Below, in pieces: positions 50,944 to 54,457 of a DNA stretch of 64,000 bases (within the stretch, counting starts at the first letter, position 1; each line of letters opens with the position of its first letter). The DNA is taken from NCBI RefSeq assembly GCF_040267685.1, contig NZ_CP158367.1, positions 1,736,001-1,800,000 of the forward strand, given 5' to 3'. Source of the DNA: Proteinivorax tanatarense. Lineage in GTDB: Bacteria; Bacillota; Proteinivoracia; Proteinivoracales; Proteinivoracaceae. Below the pieces are notes generated by a model. It did not search any database. It saw nothing but the letters and a program-made list of their open reading frames with translations, and was not told where the DNA came from. Position numbers and translations under genes: made by a program.

Positions 50944-51675
50944 TCATTTTTTAGCTACAAAGGTAATTCTGTGACTTTGCTCACAGGATTTAATTATTTT
51001 TTTATTATAATCTTCATATGTTTCAATAGAAGTAAACCCAGCCCAGTTAAGAGCTGTTTTTAACTCTTCTAAAGTATATCCTCGTTGGGTAATAGATAAG
51101 TCAGTTCGTTTATATCTATTACCCATTATATTTTCAAAAAAAGTCAAGTAAAAATCTACTATGTTATCTTTTGAAATTATTGTATCCCAGATATAGGTTA
51201 GCTCTTTATAATCTTCGCAAAAAATTTCTCCCTGCATATCTGAGAATTTTTTTAGAGTAGAAACATCAAATATAAAAGTACCATTTCCTTTAAAAGAGTT
51301 AAAAACCTTTTTAAAAAATATTTCTAACTCTCTTTTATCCAAAATCGAGTTTACTCCATCATTTGGACAGATGATTTGATTACATGACAGGTAATCGGCA
51401 TTTAACATATCATCGCAGATTAGTGGTATTTCAAGTCTTTCTTTTGTTATTTTTTGTTCTGCAATAGATAGCATATTAGACTCAATATCTATACCTGTTA
51501 CATCGTACCCTAGCTTCTTCAATCTAATAGTTAGGTTGCCTGTACCACATCCTAACTCTAGTATAGATAATTTTCGGTCACAAAACGTATCAATAAAAGA
51601 AACCCATTTATCATAAGGAAACTCAATCATAAATTTATCATAATATTTGGCTAGTATATCATAGCCTGAAGACAT
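50944..51675 (-). CDS. yqeM: YqeM-like class I SAM-dependent methyltransferase
   Basis: The 243-residue protein has the Rossmann SAM site ILELGCGTGNLTI and VTGIDIESNMLS, with an N-terminal SGYDILAKYYDKFM typical of YqeM. It begins at the rsfS stop (base 51675), completing the nadD-yqeK-rsfS-yqeM order of Bacillus. Its substrate is not known. Confidence 0.85.
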   Translation of the reverse strand: MSSGYDILAKYYDKFMIEFPYDKWVSFIDTFCDRKLSILELGCGTGNLTIRLKKLGYDVTGIDIESNMLSIAEQKITKERLEIPLICDDMLNADYLSCNQIICPNDGVNSILDKRELEIFFKKVFNSFKGNGTFIFDVSTLKKFSDMQGEIFCEDYKELTYIWDTIISKDNIVDFYLTFFENIMGNRYKRTDLSITQRGYTLEELKTALNWAGFTSIETYEDYNKKIIKSCEQSHRITFVAKK

Positions 51676-52013
51676 TAAAACTCTACTTCCTTAGCTTGAC
51701 GCCAAAATTTTTCTAATCCATAATATTCCCTTTGTTCCGCCAACATAAGGTGAACTACTATATCACCATAGTCTAGTATTATCCAATTCCCCTCATCATA
51801 TCCTTCTTTGCGAATAAAGTTTACTCCCTCTGAGTGAAGCGAATCTTCAACTTCATCGCAAATACTCTTAATATGGGGGACATTATTTGCTGTTGCTATT
51901 ACAAAATAATCAGCGATTTCTGTAACTCCTTCAAGGTCTAAAACTTTAATATTCTCCCCTTTTTTGTCATCAACCGCACTTTTTATAAGCTCTGCCTTTT
52001 CTTTAATCTTCAA
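51675..52013 (-). CDS. rsfS: Ribosomal silencing factor RsfS
   Basis: This protein binds ribosomal protein L14 and blocks subunit joining when nutrients are scarce. The 112-residue protein shows VLDLEGVTEIADYFVIATANN and the segment GNWIILDYGDIVVHLM, with the YYGLEKFW tail typical of the family. It lies 2 bases after the LCP-like gene and directly before yqeM. Confidence 0.96.
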   Translation of the reverse strand: MKIKEKAELIKSAVDDKKGENIKVLDLEGVTEIADYFVIATANNVPHIKSICDEVEDSLHSEGVNFIRKEGYDEGNWIILDYGDIVVHLMLAEQREYYGLEKFWRQAKEVEF

Positions 52014-52015
52014 AA

Positions 52016-53302
52016 TTAATCCTCCTTTAAATCATAGCCTAATATTATCACAACATCATGAGATTCCATATCTTCATTTAACTGTAGCCTAGGATTTGCT
52101 GGATAATGATCTTTTAGATATTCTAAAATCCCTTCAGCGAAAACTCTATAATCAGGGTGTACATATATCTGGGTCCTATCTGCCCCTGAATAATTCCTGA
52201 AATTAGGTCCATCGTAAAAATTATGGTATTGGCTAGGGTTATATGCTCCTACTGAATCTTGACCATCTTTTCTTTCGACTTCAAAAGAAAACCCAAACTC
52301 GTTTTGGATTTCGTCTCTAATAGAACCCGCCAATCCTGTTATATTAGTTCCATTAACAACCGCATAGGCGATAGAATACCTTGGTACATATGGCTCTCCT
52401 TCTTGTATTGCTATAATAGTATTATTTGCAATTTCATTTTGGTTTGGCACCCATAGCACATTACCATCTATAGTTACTGTTTCCCCTGGTAATGTAAATG
52501 TATGCCTTTCCCGCTCTAAAGATTCATCTAGCATATTTCTAAATAACGCTAGCTGCCTAATATCCATATTGGTATACATTCTATTTTCCAATTCAGCAAA
52601 ACTACCTATAAGTCCCAAAGCTCTATTCCACTTAAAATTATTATCAAATATTCCCAAAACAACATCTATCTGACGCTGAATGAACCTTTCATTTGGCTCG
52701 AACTCTTTGTTACCCTCTAAGTGGTTTTCAACAGGCTCCATATAAGCCATAACCTCATCCGTTTCTAGTGTTCTCTCCCCTGTCGTCCTTGTAAAATCTT
52801 CGTGATCGAAGTTTTGACGAATATGAATTTCAAATTCTCTTCCATTTTCAACAAGAGTTTTTACACCTTCACTATCTAAAATAACATAATTATCTATAAA
52901 TCCATCATAAAATGTTTGTTCAACGGCAGTTACTACATCATCAATAGTACCGCCGCGATATACATCATTTAAAGTAATTCTTTGGGCATCAAAATCAACA
53001 GTGGTCTGAGTTGGTATGTTAATATTGTATGCAGGACCTTCAGAACCCAACACCACAACAAAGGCGGATTTTAAAGGATTTTGTTCATTTTCCTTGTCAG
53101 TGTAAACAATTAAGTAAGCCTCTTGATCATTTCCTTCAACATCCCAATATCCTTCAGTGCCTTGTAATGCGCTTATTAATCCAACAGTTCTATACGTATA
53201 AGCTATAAAACCTACAGCCACTACTAGTGCTATTATGCTAACTATTTTTTTCCATACACCGCTTTTACCTTTCTTGAAACGGTTGCGTTTAGAAAACTTC
53301 AT
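52016..53302 (-). CDS. Divergent LytR-CpsA-Psr (LCP) family protein
   Basis: The protein has 428 residues, with a basic N-terminus, one transmembrane helix (about 18-37), an LCP-like domain (about 60-230) and a C-terminal LytR_C domain (about 310-428, YAVVNGTNITGLAGSIRDEI). LCP enzymes usually attach wall polymers to peptidoglycan and need several Arg residues for the pyrophosphate. Here the family's IPRDT is IPTQT at 96-100, and the RxR segment is replaced by MEPVENH (188-194). Only the RQ at 210-211 is kept. It may be a non-catalytic member. It sits between yqeK and rsfS, the normal place of the LCP gene in Clostridia. Confidence 0.82.
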   Translation of the reverse strand: MKFSKRNRFKKGKSGVWKKIVSIIALVVAVGFIAYTYRTVGLISALQGTEGYWDVEGNDQEAYLIVYTDKENEQNPLKSAFVVVLGSEGPAYNINIPTQTTVDFDAQRITLNDVYRGGTIDDVVTAVEQTFYDGFIDNYVILDSEGVKTLVENGREFEIHIRQNFDHEDFTRTTGERTLETDEVMAYMEPVENHLEGNKEFEPNERFIQRQIDVVLGIFDNNFKWNRALGLIGSFAELENRMYTNMDIRQLALFRNMLDESLERERHTFTLPGETVTIDGNVLWVPNQNEIANNTIIAIQEGEPYVPRYSIAYAVVNGTNITGLAGSIRDEIQNEFGFSFEVERKDGQDSVGAYNPSQYHNFYDGPNFRNYSGADRTQIYVHPDYRVFAEGILEYLKDHYPANPRLQLNEDMESHDVVIILGYDLKED

Positions 53303-53313
53303 TTATATACCTC

Positions 53314-53889
53314 CTATTGTTTTAACTGAGTGATAGTGTCTACCAGCAGTTTGTGCGGATTAAGGCCTTGTTTTTTTAAATGATAATATGTCCCTAATAA
53401 GCAATGGTATAAACATAAATCCAGATCTTTGTATGCAAGATTTCTTAGTTTACCCACTCCAGTAAAATTTCTCGATGGTTCTATATAGTCTGCCACACAA
53501 ATTATCTTTTCAAACCTTTCCATGTTAGGTGAACCAGTTGTATGATAAAAAACAGCATTTAGGATTTGGCTATCTTTTATGCTAAAATCATATTCCAAAA
53601 TTTTACTTGCTATAGGTCCATGTAACAAACTAGCTGGATATAGTCTTTGGAGATTATCAATCTCTAATTGATATTTATCTGCTAACTTTAAAATTCTTGT
53701 ATTCGAGAATTCTCTTGCTATATCATGGGCAATACCTGCTAAATAAGCTTTTTTATGATCTACACCAAATTTTTTAGCTAATACTATAGATTCTTTAGCT
53801 ACTAATACTGAATGCAGATACCTCGCTGACGTTAGTTTATGGCATGCATACTGATCTAATTTTTTAATAGCAATGTTAATGTCATCCAA
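53314..53889 (-). CDS. yqeK: HD domain hydrolase YqeK (Ap4A hydrolase)
   Basis: This enzyme hydrolyses diadenosine tetraphosphate to ADP in Firmicutes. The 191-residue protein has an HD domain: H in SARYLHSVLVAKESI, then YLAGIAHDIAREF, LLHGPIASKI and HTTGSPNM. It overlaps nadD by 8 bases. Confidence 0.93.
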   Translation of the reverse strand: MDDINIAIKKLDQYACHKLTSARYLHSVLVAKESIVLAKKFGVDHKKAYLAGIAHDIAREFSNTRILKLADKYQLEIDNLQRLYPASLLHGPIASKILEYDFSIKDSQILNAVFYHTTGSPNMERFEKIICVADYIEPSRNFTGVGKLRNLAYKDLDLCLYHCLLGTYYHLKKQGLNPHKLLVDTITQLKQ

Positions 53890-54457
53890 TGTAAAGTTCC
53901 TCTTTTTCTATATATTGTTCTACTTTTGGATGTAATATATATTTGCATGATTTATTTGCAGCTACTCTTTTGCGAACTTCAGTTGATGATAATCCTACTA
54001 TAGGGGTATCTACCATAACGAAGTTCTCAGCATCAAACTTTTGGAACACGTTTTGAAAATCAATATCATTTCTTCTAGCAATAATCATTTTGCAGTGGTT
54101 CAATATACCCATTGGGTTTCTCCAATTAGGTAAGTCAACTAAAGAGTCAGCTCCTGCAAAAAAATAGAGTTGGTCAGTTTTTGTGCTAAAATGTTTTACA
54201 GTCCGGTAAGTATAGTTTGTGCCCTTCTGTTTTAGTTCATAAGTAGAAACTTCAAAAGAAGGATTATCACTAATTGCTAATTCCACCATTTTCAAACGAT
54301 GAATCGACGATGAAACCCCTTTTTTATGAGGTGGCACCCCTGTCGGCAAAAAAGTAATTTTCCCAGCTCCGATACTTTCTTTTACATGCTCAGCAATAAT
54401 TAGATGGCCAATGTGAATTGGGTCAAATGTTCCACCAAAAAGTACAATACTTGACAT
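53882..54457 (-). CDS. nadD: Nicotinate-nucleotide adenylyltransferase NadD
   Basis: This enzyme makes deamido-NAD from NaMN and ATP. The 191-residue protein has FGGTFDPIHIGHL (nucleotidyltransferase HxGH motif) at 7-19, TGVPPHKKG, and the C-terminal GLSSTEVRKRV. It lies 11 bases after yhbY. Confidence 0.96.
   Translation of the reverse strand: MSSIVLFGGTFDPIHIGHLIIAEHVKESIGAGKITFLPTGVPPHKKGVSSSIHRLKMVELAISDNPSFEVSTYELKQKGTNYTYRTVKHFSTKTDQLYFFAGADSLVDLPNWRNPMGILNHCKMIIARRNDIDFQNVFQKFDAENFVMVDTPIVGLSSTEVRKRVAANKSCKYILHPKVEQYIEKEELYIG

Follow-up and report, generated by a model that had tools for sequence, protein, structure and literature searches.

A probable LCP pseudoenzyme encoded between yqeK and rsfS in Proteinivorax tanatarense, one of a widespread group of degenerate LCP-LytR_C proteins

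RESULTS

A degenerate LCP-LytR_C gene lies between yqeK and rsfS

The DNA analyzed here (the window) is a 64,000-nucleotide stretch of the Proteinivorax tanatarense genome (contig NZ_CP158367.1, positions 1,736,001 to 1,800,000). The gene under study lies on the minus strand between yqeK and rsfS, with YhbY and Obg also among the neighbors identified with Pfam. A prior reading of the DNA without database searches (the sequence-only reading) had placed the gene at the usual LCP gene position, and the order found here, with an HD/YqeK-type gene before it and RsfS after it, agrees with that placement. The features of the locus and of the protein are as follows.

51675..52013, minus strand: rsfS, TTG start (PF02410, E 9.2e-34)
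52016..53302, minus strand: degenerate LCP-LytR_C gene, ATG start, 428 aa, with an LCP fold and a LytR_C tail
52028..52369, minus strand: diverged LytR_C domain with insertions, about residues 312-425 (Pfam, alignments)
52433..53119, minus strand: LCP domain, about residues 62-290 (alignments; profile comparison with 10 intact LCPs, probability 99.9)
52538..52558, minus strand: RQLALFR, residues 249-255 (R249 and R255 invariant in 13/13 class members)
52721..52741, minus strand: MEPVENH, residues 188-194, replacing the RxR motif (VRxR in intact LCPs; alignment)
53003..53017, minus strand: IPTQT, residues 96-100, replacing IPRDT, whose Arg is TagT R118 by alignment
53192..53245, minus strand: hydrophobic N-terminal segment, residues 20-37, probable membrane anchor (sequence inspection only)
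53314..53889, minus strand: yqeK-type HD protein gene, 11 bases upstream of the LCP gene (PF01966, E 3.1e-10)
53882..54457, minus strand: nadD-type nucleotidyltransferase gene (PF01467, E 2.6e-26)

Two bases separate the LCP stop codon from the rsfS start, and the GGAGGA for rsfS lies within the end of the LCP gene; LCP and rsfS are thus probably translated together. In the class members L008 to L015 and L019, judged from open reading frame lists only, nadD directly precedes the LCP gene, apparently without a yqeK-type gene.

The window protein scored 23.2 bits against the Pfam LCP model (cutoff, 24.6), and PF03816 matched 13/13 members of the window's class at E 0.01 when each was scanned singly. 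A profile built from these 13 members matched the solved structures of TagV (E 5e-19), TagT (7e-10), and Cps2A (3e-6), as well as TagU. Taken together with the profile comparison against intact LCPs (hhalign), these matches indicate that the protein is a true LCP relative. An unrelated protein with a chance Pfam hit was ruled out by the hhalign result, the 13/13 Pfam matches, and the PDB profile search. A frameshift or sequencing error was also ruled out, as all 55 degenerate genes described below have open frames of 368 to 428 aa. Stop codons were flagged inside the matched stretch for three genomes (G017, G097, and G280), each of which still carries an open frame of at least 382 aa.

The window protein has lost the residues that LCP ligases use

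LCP ligases attach sugar polymers to the bacterial cell wall. They are described, in the accessible portions of three papers, as using arginines equivalent to TagT R118, R219, and R227 together with two Mg-binding aspartates (PMC6381275, PMC7831098, PMC11337229), and transfer by TagT is reported in the available text of the last of these to be abolished by each of the single changes R118A, R219A, and R227A. We scored eight residues, namely, the R and D of RxD, the R and D of PRD, both R residues of RxR, and the D and R of GDxxR, with the TagT equivalences set by alignment and spacing, without superposition. Aligned to the intact LCPs of rsfS loci, the window protein carries 0/8. The replacements of IPRDT by IPTQT and of the RxR region by MEPVENH, which the sequence-only reading had pointed out, were borne out: T98 and Q99 stand at the PRD arginine and aspartate, and E189 and V191 stand at the RxR positions. 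The helix arginine position (the TagT R227 equivalent) is occupied by F207, with R206 one position off. Retained near the site are R210-Q211, corresponding in the alignment to the RQ just after the catalytic helix arginine, and D69, at the place of the first Mg-binding aspartate; K78 stands at the second. Judged by sequence, the window protein appears to lack the full set of three TagT arginines and two Mg aspartates expected of an active enzyme.

A similar loss was seen in all 55 degenerate proteins aligned, 23 of which keep none of the scored residues, 27 one, and 5 two, versus 8/8 in each of 26 intact LCPs from rsfS loci. An arginine is present at the TagT R227 position in 13/55 degenerate proteins, and aspartates are present at the first and second Mg positions in 15/55 and 7/55. 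No new arginine was conserved at the lost positions in the alignment of the 55 proteins; the possibility that other Arg residues fill the site, which the sequence-only reading had held out as grounds for rejecting its proposal, therefore finds no support at the level of sequence. An AlphaFold model of the window protein and two named relatives had a pLDDT of 36 and a pTM of 0.27.

Just past the conserved T244, at residues 248-249 (52556-52561), degenerate proteins commonly have W (76%) or another residue followed by R (73% of the 55) or K; this pair is not common in intact LCPs, in which the arginine at residue 249 is not conserved. The W-R/K pair is a possible signature of the lineage.

Intact LCPs are encoded elsewhere in the same genomes

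The sequence-only reading had suggested a search for another intact LCP gene in the genome. PF03816 matched at five places in this genome, three of them strong (174.6, 142.3, and 111.5 bits), one truncated (29.6 bits), and one the window gene itself (25.7 bits). All three strong LCPs carry all eight scored residues, and LytR_C was not found in any of them with Pfam. The idea that the window gene is the only LCP gene of its genome was ruled out by these strong LCPs. One of them (L002) is a protein of 641 aa in which an acidic EQEQES-type repeat, MucBP, and Big_3 precede the LCP domain. The truncated match (L004; G000:C1:1680718-1680954, outside the window) belongs to a 279-aa LCP-like protein that covers model positions 3-84 only, without the RxR/GDxGR part; it sits between two strong LCP genes, and a comparable match was obtained in the sister genome (G001:C1:1276948, 27.7 bits).

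Across the class, 13/13 genomes encode an LCP that scores at least 100 bits elsewhere (108 or more) and has the PRD motif, and PRD (or VRD) was present in 23 of the 24 strong class LCP loci read. In two genomes (G003 and G004), the sole strong LCP (L190 and L191) reads YVGAR in place of the usual YVRxR, with PRD kept; DFGRIRRQ was seen in L191. Since the first Arg of RxR is replaced by G, the intact LCP elsewhere is imperfect in these two genomes.

Degenerate proteins at the rsfS locus form a widespread lineage

The class profile gave one strong match per genome (E 1e-137 or better) in 13/13 class genomes. YqeK was present in 42/42 fetched loci (41 genomes) and RsfS in 40/42; the two loci without RsfS stop at a contig end. 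For an unbiased view, we surveyed the region upstream of rsfS in 78 genomes, drawn from among the matches listed for 243 genomes with RsfS; most were the single representative of their family, and the window's class was excluded. No LCP open reading frame was present at 46 of these loci, and one was present at 32. Among the 32, 26 were intact in the part that could be read (L098 runs into a contig end), 3 were fully degenerate (L079, L106, and L118), and 3 were partly eroded (L082, L138, and L100). In the partly eroded proteins, which come from two families (f32 for L082 and L138; f60 for L100), PRD has become PQD, PSD, or PDD and RTD has become KAD or QAN, with other site residues kept and no LytR_C visible in the alignment; for counts and for the domain comparison, they were placed in neither the degenerate nor the intact group. 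The residue alignment also omitted L146, L182, and L187 (repeats) and L098, and an intact LCP from viral contigs (L139) was dropped because it spoilt the alignment.

Two of the fully degenerate proteins (L106 and L118) lead to a second class, in which 3/3 genomes have a degenerate gene, and L079 leads to a third, in which 56/79 genomes matched the degenerate query, some only at paralogues. All 39 third-class locus genes that were read are degenerate (37 with RsfS in view), a count that, because the query itself is degenerate, does not give a class-wide share. No intact LCP was seen at the rsfS locus in the third class, either among these 39 locus genes or at 16 further loci. The latter come from 20 of the third-class genomes without such a gene in the search, 16 of which have an RsfS match; in 16/16, YqeK adjoins RsfS with no LCP between them, indicating that the gene is dispensable in some lineages. 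The 55 degenerate rsfS-locus proteins are thus the products of 13/13 window-class genomes, 3/3 genomes of the second class, and the 39/39 genes read in the third; relatives include proteins of Firmicutes bacterium UBA5496 (L059) and Bacillota bacterium isolate AS09scLD_78 (L060). The window gene is therefore one of a widespread lineage rather than one odd gene, which goes beyond what the sequence-only reading had proposed.

Phylogenetic analyses with the motif columns removed grouped the degenerate proteins. In a full-length tree of 78 of 91 rows (near-duplicates and the genome's own L002 and L004 were left out), 45 degenerate rows fell on one side of a branch with an SH-aLRT of 96. In a second full-length tree, 22 degenerate rows formed one clade against 22 intact rows (bootstrap/SH-aLRT, 100/99). 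In a tree of LytR_C only (91 columns), the backbone was open, and the window's class was not united with the other degenerate proteins. Of the 55 degenerate rows, 22 entered these last two trees, alongside 22 or 21 of the 26 intact ones. In the tree of RsfS from the host genomes, degenerate hosts were ungrouped and four changes were needed, and a single clade was not rejected (p-AU 0.193). We tentatively favor a single origin of the degenerate proteins; long branches could have contributed to their grouping in the full-length trees.

LytR_C is detected exactly once in most genomes searched

LytR_C is presented in the available portion of PMC11481543 as a domain whose function is not yet known. 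In the window protein, this domain scores 19.2 bits (Pfam cutoff, 22.2), contains insertions, and reads NGTN for NGNG. It matched in 12/13 class members at E 0.01 when each was scanned singly; in the genome search at the same threshold, it was not detected in either genome of the window's genus, which forms the longest branch of the LytR_C tree (3.41). The sequence-only reading had called LytR_C intact, a description that does not hold for this genus, although it fits most of the lineage. Exactly one LytR_C, inside the rsfS-locus gene, was found in 11/13 class genomes and in 12/12 of the other degenerate hosts searched (23/25). Intact hosts likewise have exactly one LytR_C in 17/18 cases; in the remaining host, a second match falls below the cutoff. 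In all 41 genomes (11 class, 12 other degenerate, and 18 intact), the sole or best LytR_C match was the rsfS-locus gene.

Long-term constraint has shifted from the LCP domain to LytR_C

Whole-gene dN/dS values for three class pairs were 0.136, 0.143, and 0.125 (Nei-Gojobori) or 0.083, 0.191, and 0.168 (YN00). In two of the same three pairs, rsfS gave 0.146 and 0.209 and nadD gave 0.141. The gene is under purifying selection similar to that on rsfS and nadD. By domain, the three pairs gave 0.123, 0.155, and 0.096 for LCP and 0.159, 0.102, and 0.160 for LytR_C, the latter exceeding the former in two of three; over short times, then, both halves are constrained, LytR_C no more than LCP. Saturation of dS led us to exclude the pairs L006/L007 and L012/L015.

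For a comparison over longer times, RsfS identity served as the clock, with two degenerate rows without RsfS in view and two intact rows without LytR_C left out. At RsfS identities of 0.4 to 0.5, identity among degenerate proteins was 0.229 in the LCP domain and 0.371 in LytR_C (535 pairs), versus 0.420 and 0.324 among intact proteins (176 pairs). LytR_C was more conserved than LCP in 98.3% of 1,378 degenerate pairs versus 5.4% of 276 intact pairs. Selective constraint in the degenerate proteins has, over long times, moved from the LCP domain to LytR_C. The window's genus is reversed in this respect (LCP, 0.76; LytR_C, 0.63). Within the genus, conservation was 72% for the LCP gene, 65% for nadD, 55% for yqeK, and 81% for rsfS.

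DISCUSSION

The window protein is a relative of the LCP-LytR_C ligase encoded at the same place, between yqeK and rsfS, in other Bacillota. Its active-site residues are gone, and similarly dead versions are kept at this locus in dozens of other bacteria, so it is probably a nonenzymatic envelope protein. We lean toward regarding it as a membrane-anchored pseudoenzyme that acts as a noncatalytic envelope factor. The earlier proposal that the ligase residues are lost and that the role is nonenzymatic appears well supported by at most 2/8 scored residues in 55/55 degenerate proteins, strong LCPs elsewhere in the genome, and purifying selection; the "scaffold or regulator" role put forward with it is plausible. 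As we envision it, glycopolymer transfer by the window protein would have been lost and ligation left to the other LCPs of the genome, in which LytR_C was not detected, while the window protein would retain a role as the sole detectable LytR_C carrier. Catalysis at the rsfS locus might be losable where other LCPs ligate. Such an envelope factor would hold or place wall-assembly partners, broadly as proposed for VirR, the closest worked-out case, and its dead LCP domain could serve for docking or could still hold the lipid carrier. Several observations count against this reading: in the window's genus, LytR_C is less conserved than LCP and falls below detection; 16/16 further third-class rsfS loci are without the gene; in two of three pairs the short-term dN/dS of LytR_C exceeds that of LCP; the sole strong LCP of G003 and G004 is imperfect; and the contact reported for VirR seems excluded, as described below.

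Other roles for the protein were weighed against the same data. The hydrophobic pocket might bind polyprenyl-linked precursors unreacted, making the protein a lipid-carrier sensor or sequestering protein that tunes supply to the other LCPs. According to the available text of PMC11337229, substrate is still retained in the pocket of the Cps2A R267A mutant, and purifying selection is evident on the LCP domain taken by itself (dN/dS, 0.096 to 0.155). However, this domain diverges faster than LytR_C over long times, and nearly all 55 proteins are without the scored arginines (13 keep R at the R227 position), and we consider such a role unlikely. A ligase with a redrawn active site, in which R206, R210, R249, or R255 acts instead, seems to us quite improbable. 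In both genomes of the genus, R206 does stand one place away from the TagT R227 equivalent, R249 and R255 are invariant in 13/13 class members, and D69 aligns with an Mg-binding aspartate, but R206 is absent from the other 11 class members, and across the degenerate proteins R at the R227 position (13/55) and D at the Mg positions (15/55 and 7/55) are infrequent. The R210 equivalent is usual in intact LCPs too (20/26), and the accessible portions of the literature cited above do not list it as a catalytic arginine.

There is very little to recommend a decaying relic retained only through its operon with rsfS. Loss of the active site and the 16/16 other third-class rsfS loci without the gene would fit such decay, but the frames are open in 55/55, the gene is present in 13/13 class genomes and under purifying selection with dN/dS similar to that of rsfS and nadD, and within the genus it is conserved better than nadD and yqeK, if below rsfS.

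Returning to the noncatalytic envelope factor, we give about even chances to the broader proposal that the window protein belongs to a conserved clade of LCP pseudoenzymes with one or a few origins, spread over three lineages of class rank within a single phylum; in this clade the catalytic half would have died, and long-term selection would have shifted to the only LytR_C detectable in the genome. If this is true, ligation and LytR_C function, joined elsewhere, are split between proteins here, and LytR_C could be studied apart from catalysis. A lineage that discarded the site and kept a single-copy LytR_C, better conserved in the long term, would amount to a natural separation-of-function experiment. 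In annotation, the label "LCP family transferase," when given by position or weak similarity, would assign an activity that is probably absent.

Comparison with known systems

VirR and Cei of mycobacteria are described, in the parts of the literature available, as envelope proteins with LytR_C only; like them, the window protein has LytR_C without LCP catalysis. Unlike VirR, it also has an LCP domain and so is not a LytR_C-only protein. The NCBIfam Cei model matched the LytR_C part in 4/6 relatives tested, all far below the cutoff. VirR is reported in the accessible text of PMC11832169 to contact LCPs via their LytR_C domains; as no other LytR_C was detected in this genome, exactly this type of contact seems excluded here. 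Another parallel is Eubacterium siraeum EUBSIR_01389 (PDB 4OBM), which, according to the available text of PMC11337229, has an LCP fold in which four arginines have become three Pro and one Thr. It resembles the window protein in this loss of arginines and is matched by the class profile at E 2.3e-5. In the portions of the literature searched, 4OBM is the one earlier mention of an Arg-less LCP, and a description of a conserved clade was not found.

Like TagT, TagU, TagV, and Cps2A, the window protein has an LCP domain behind an N-terminal hydrophobic segment, and the class profile matches these structures over about 125 to 220 profile positions; unlike them, the degenerate proteins have lost, by alignment, the R118, R219, and R227 equivalents and most Mg-site residues. 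A further comparison is with the rsfS-linked LCP-LytR_C proteins (available portion of PMC7549365), which share the locus and the two domains with the window protein, in which LytR_C has diverged. BLAST with one relative (L008) gave proteins of rsfS loci as the closest intact ones. Outside the degenerate lineages, LCPs at the rsfS locus are mostly intact (26/32), unlike the window protein.
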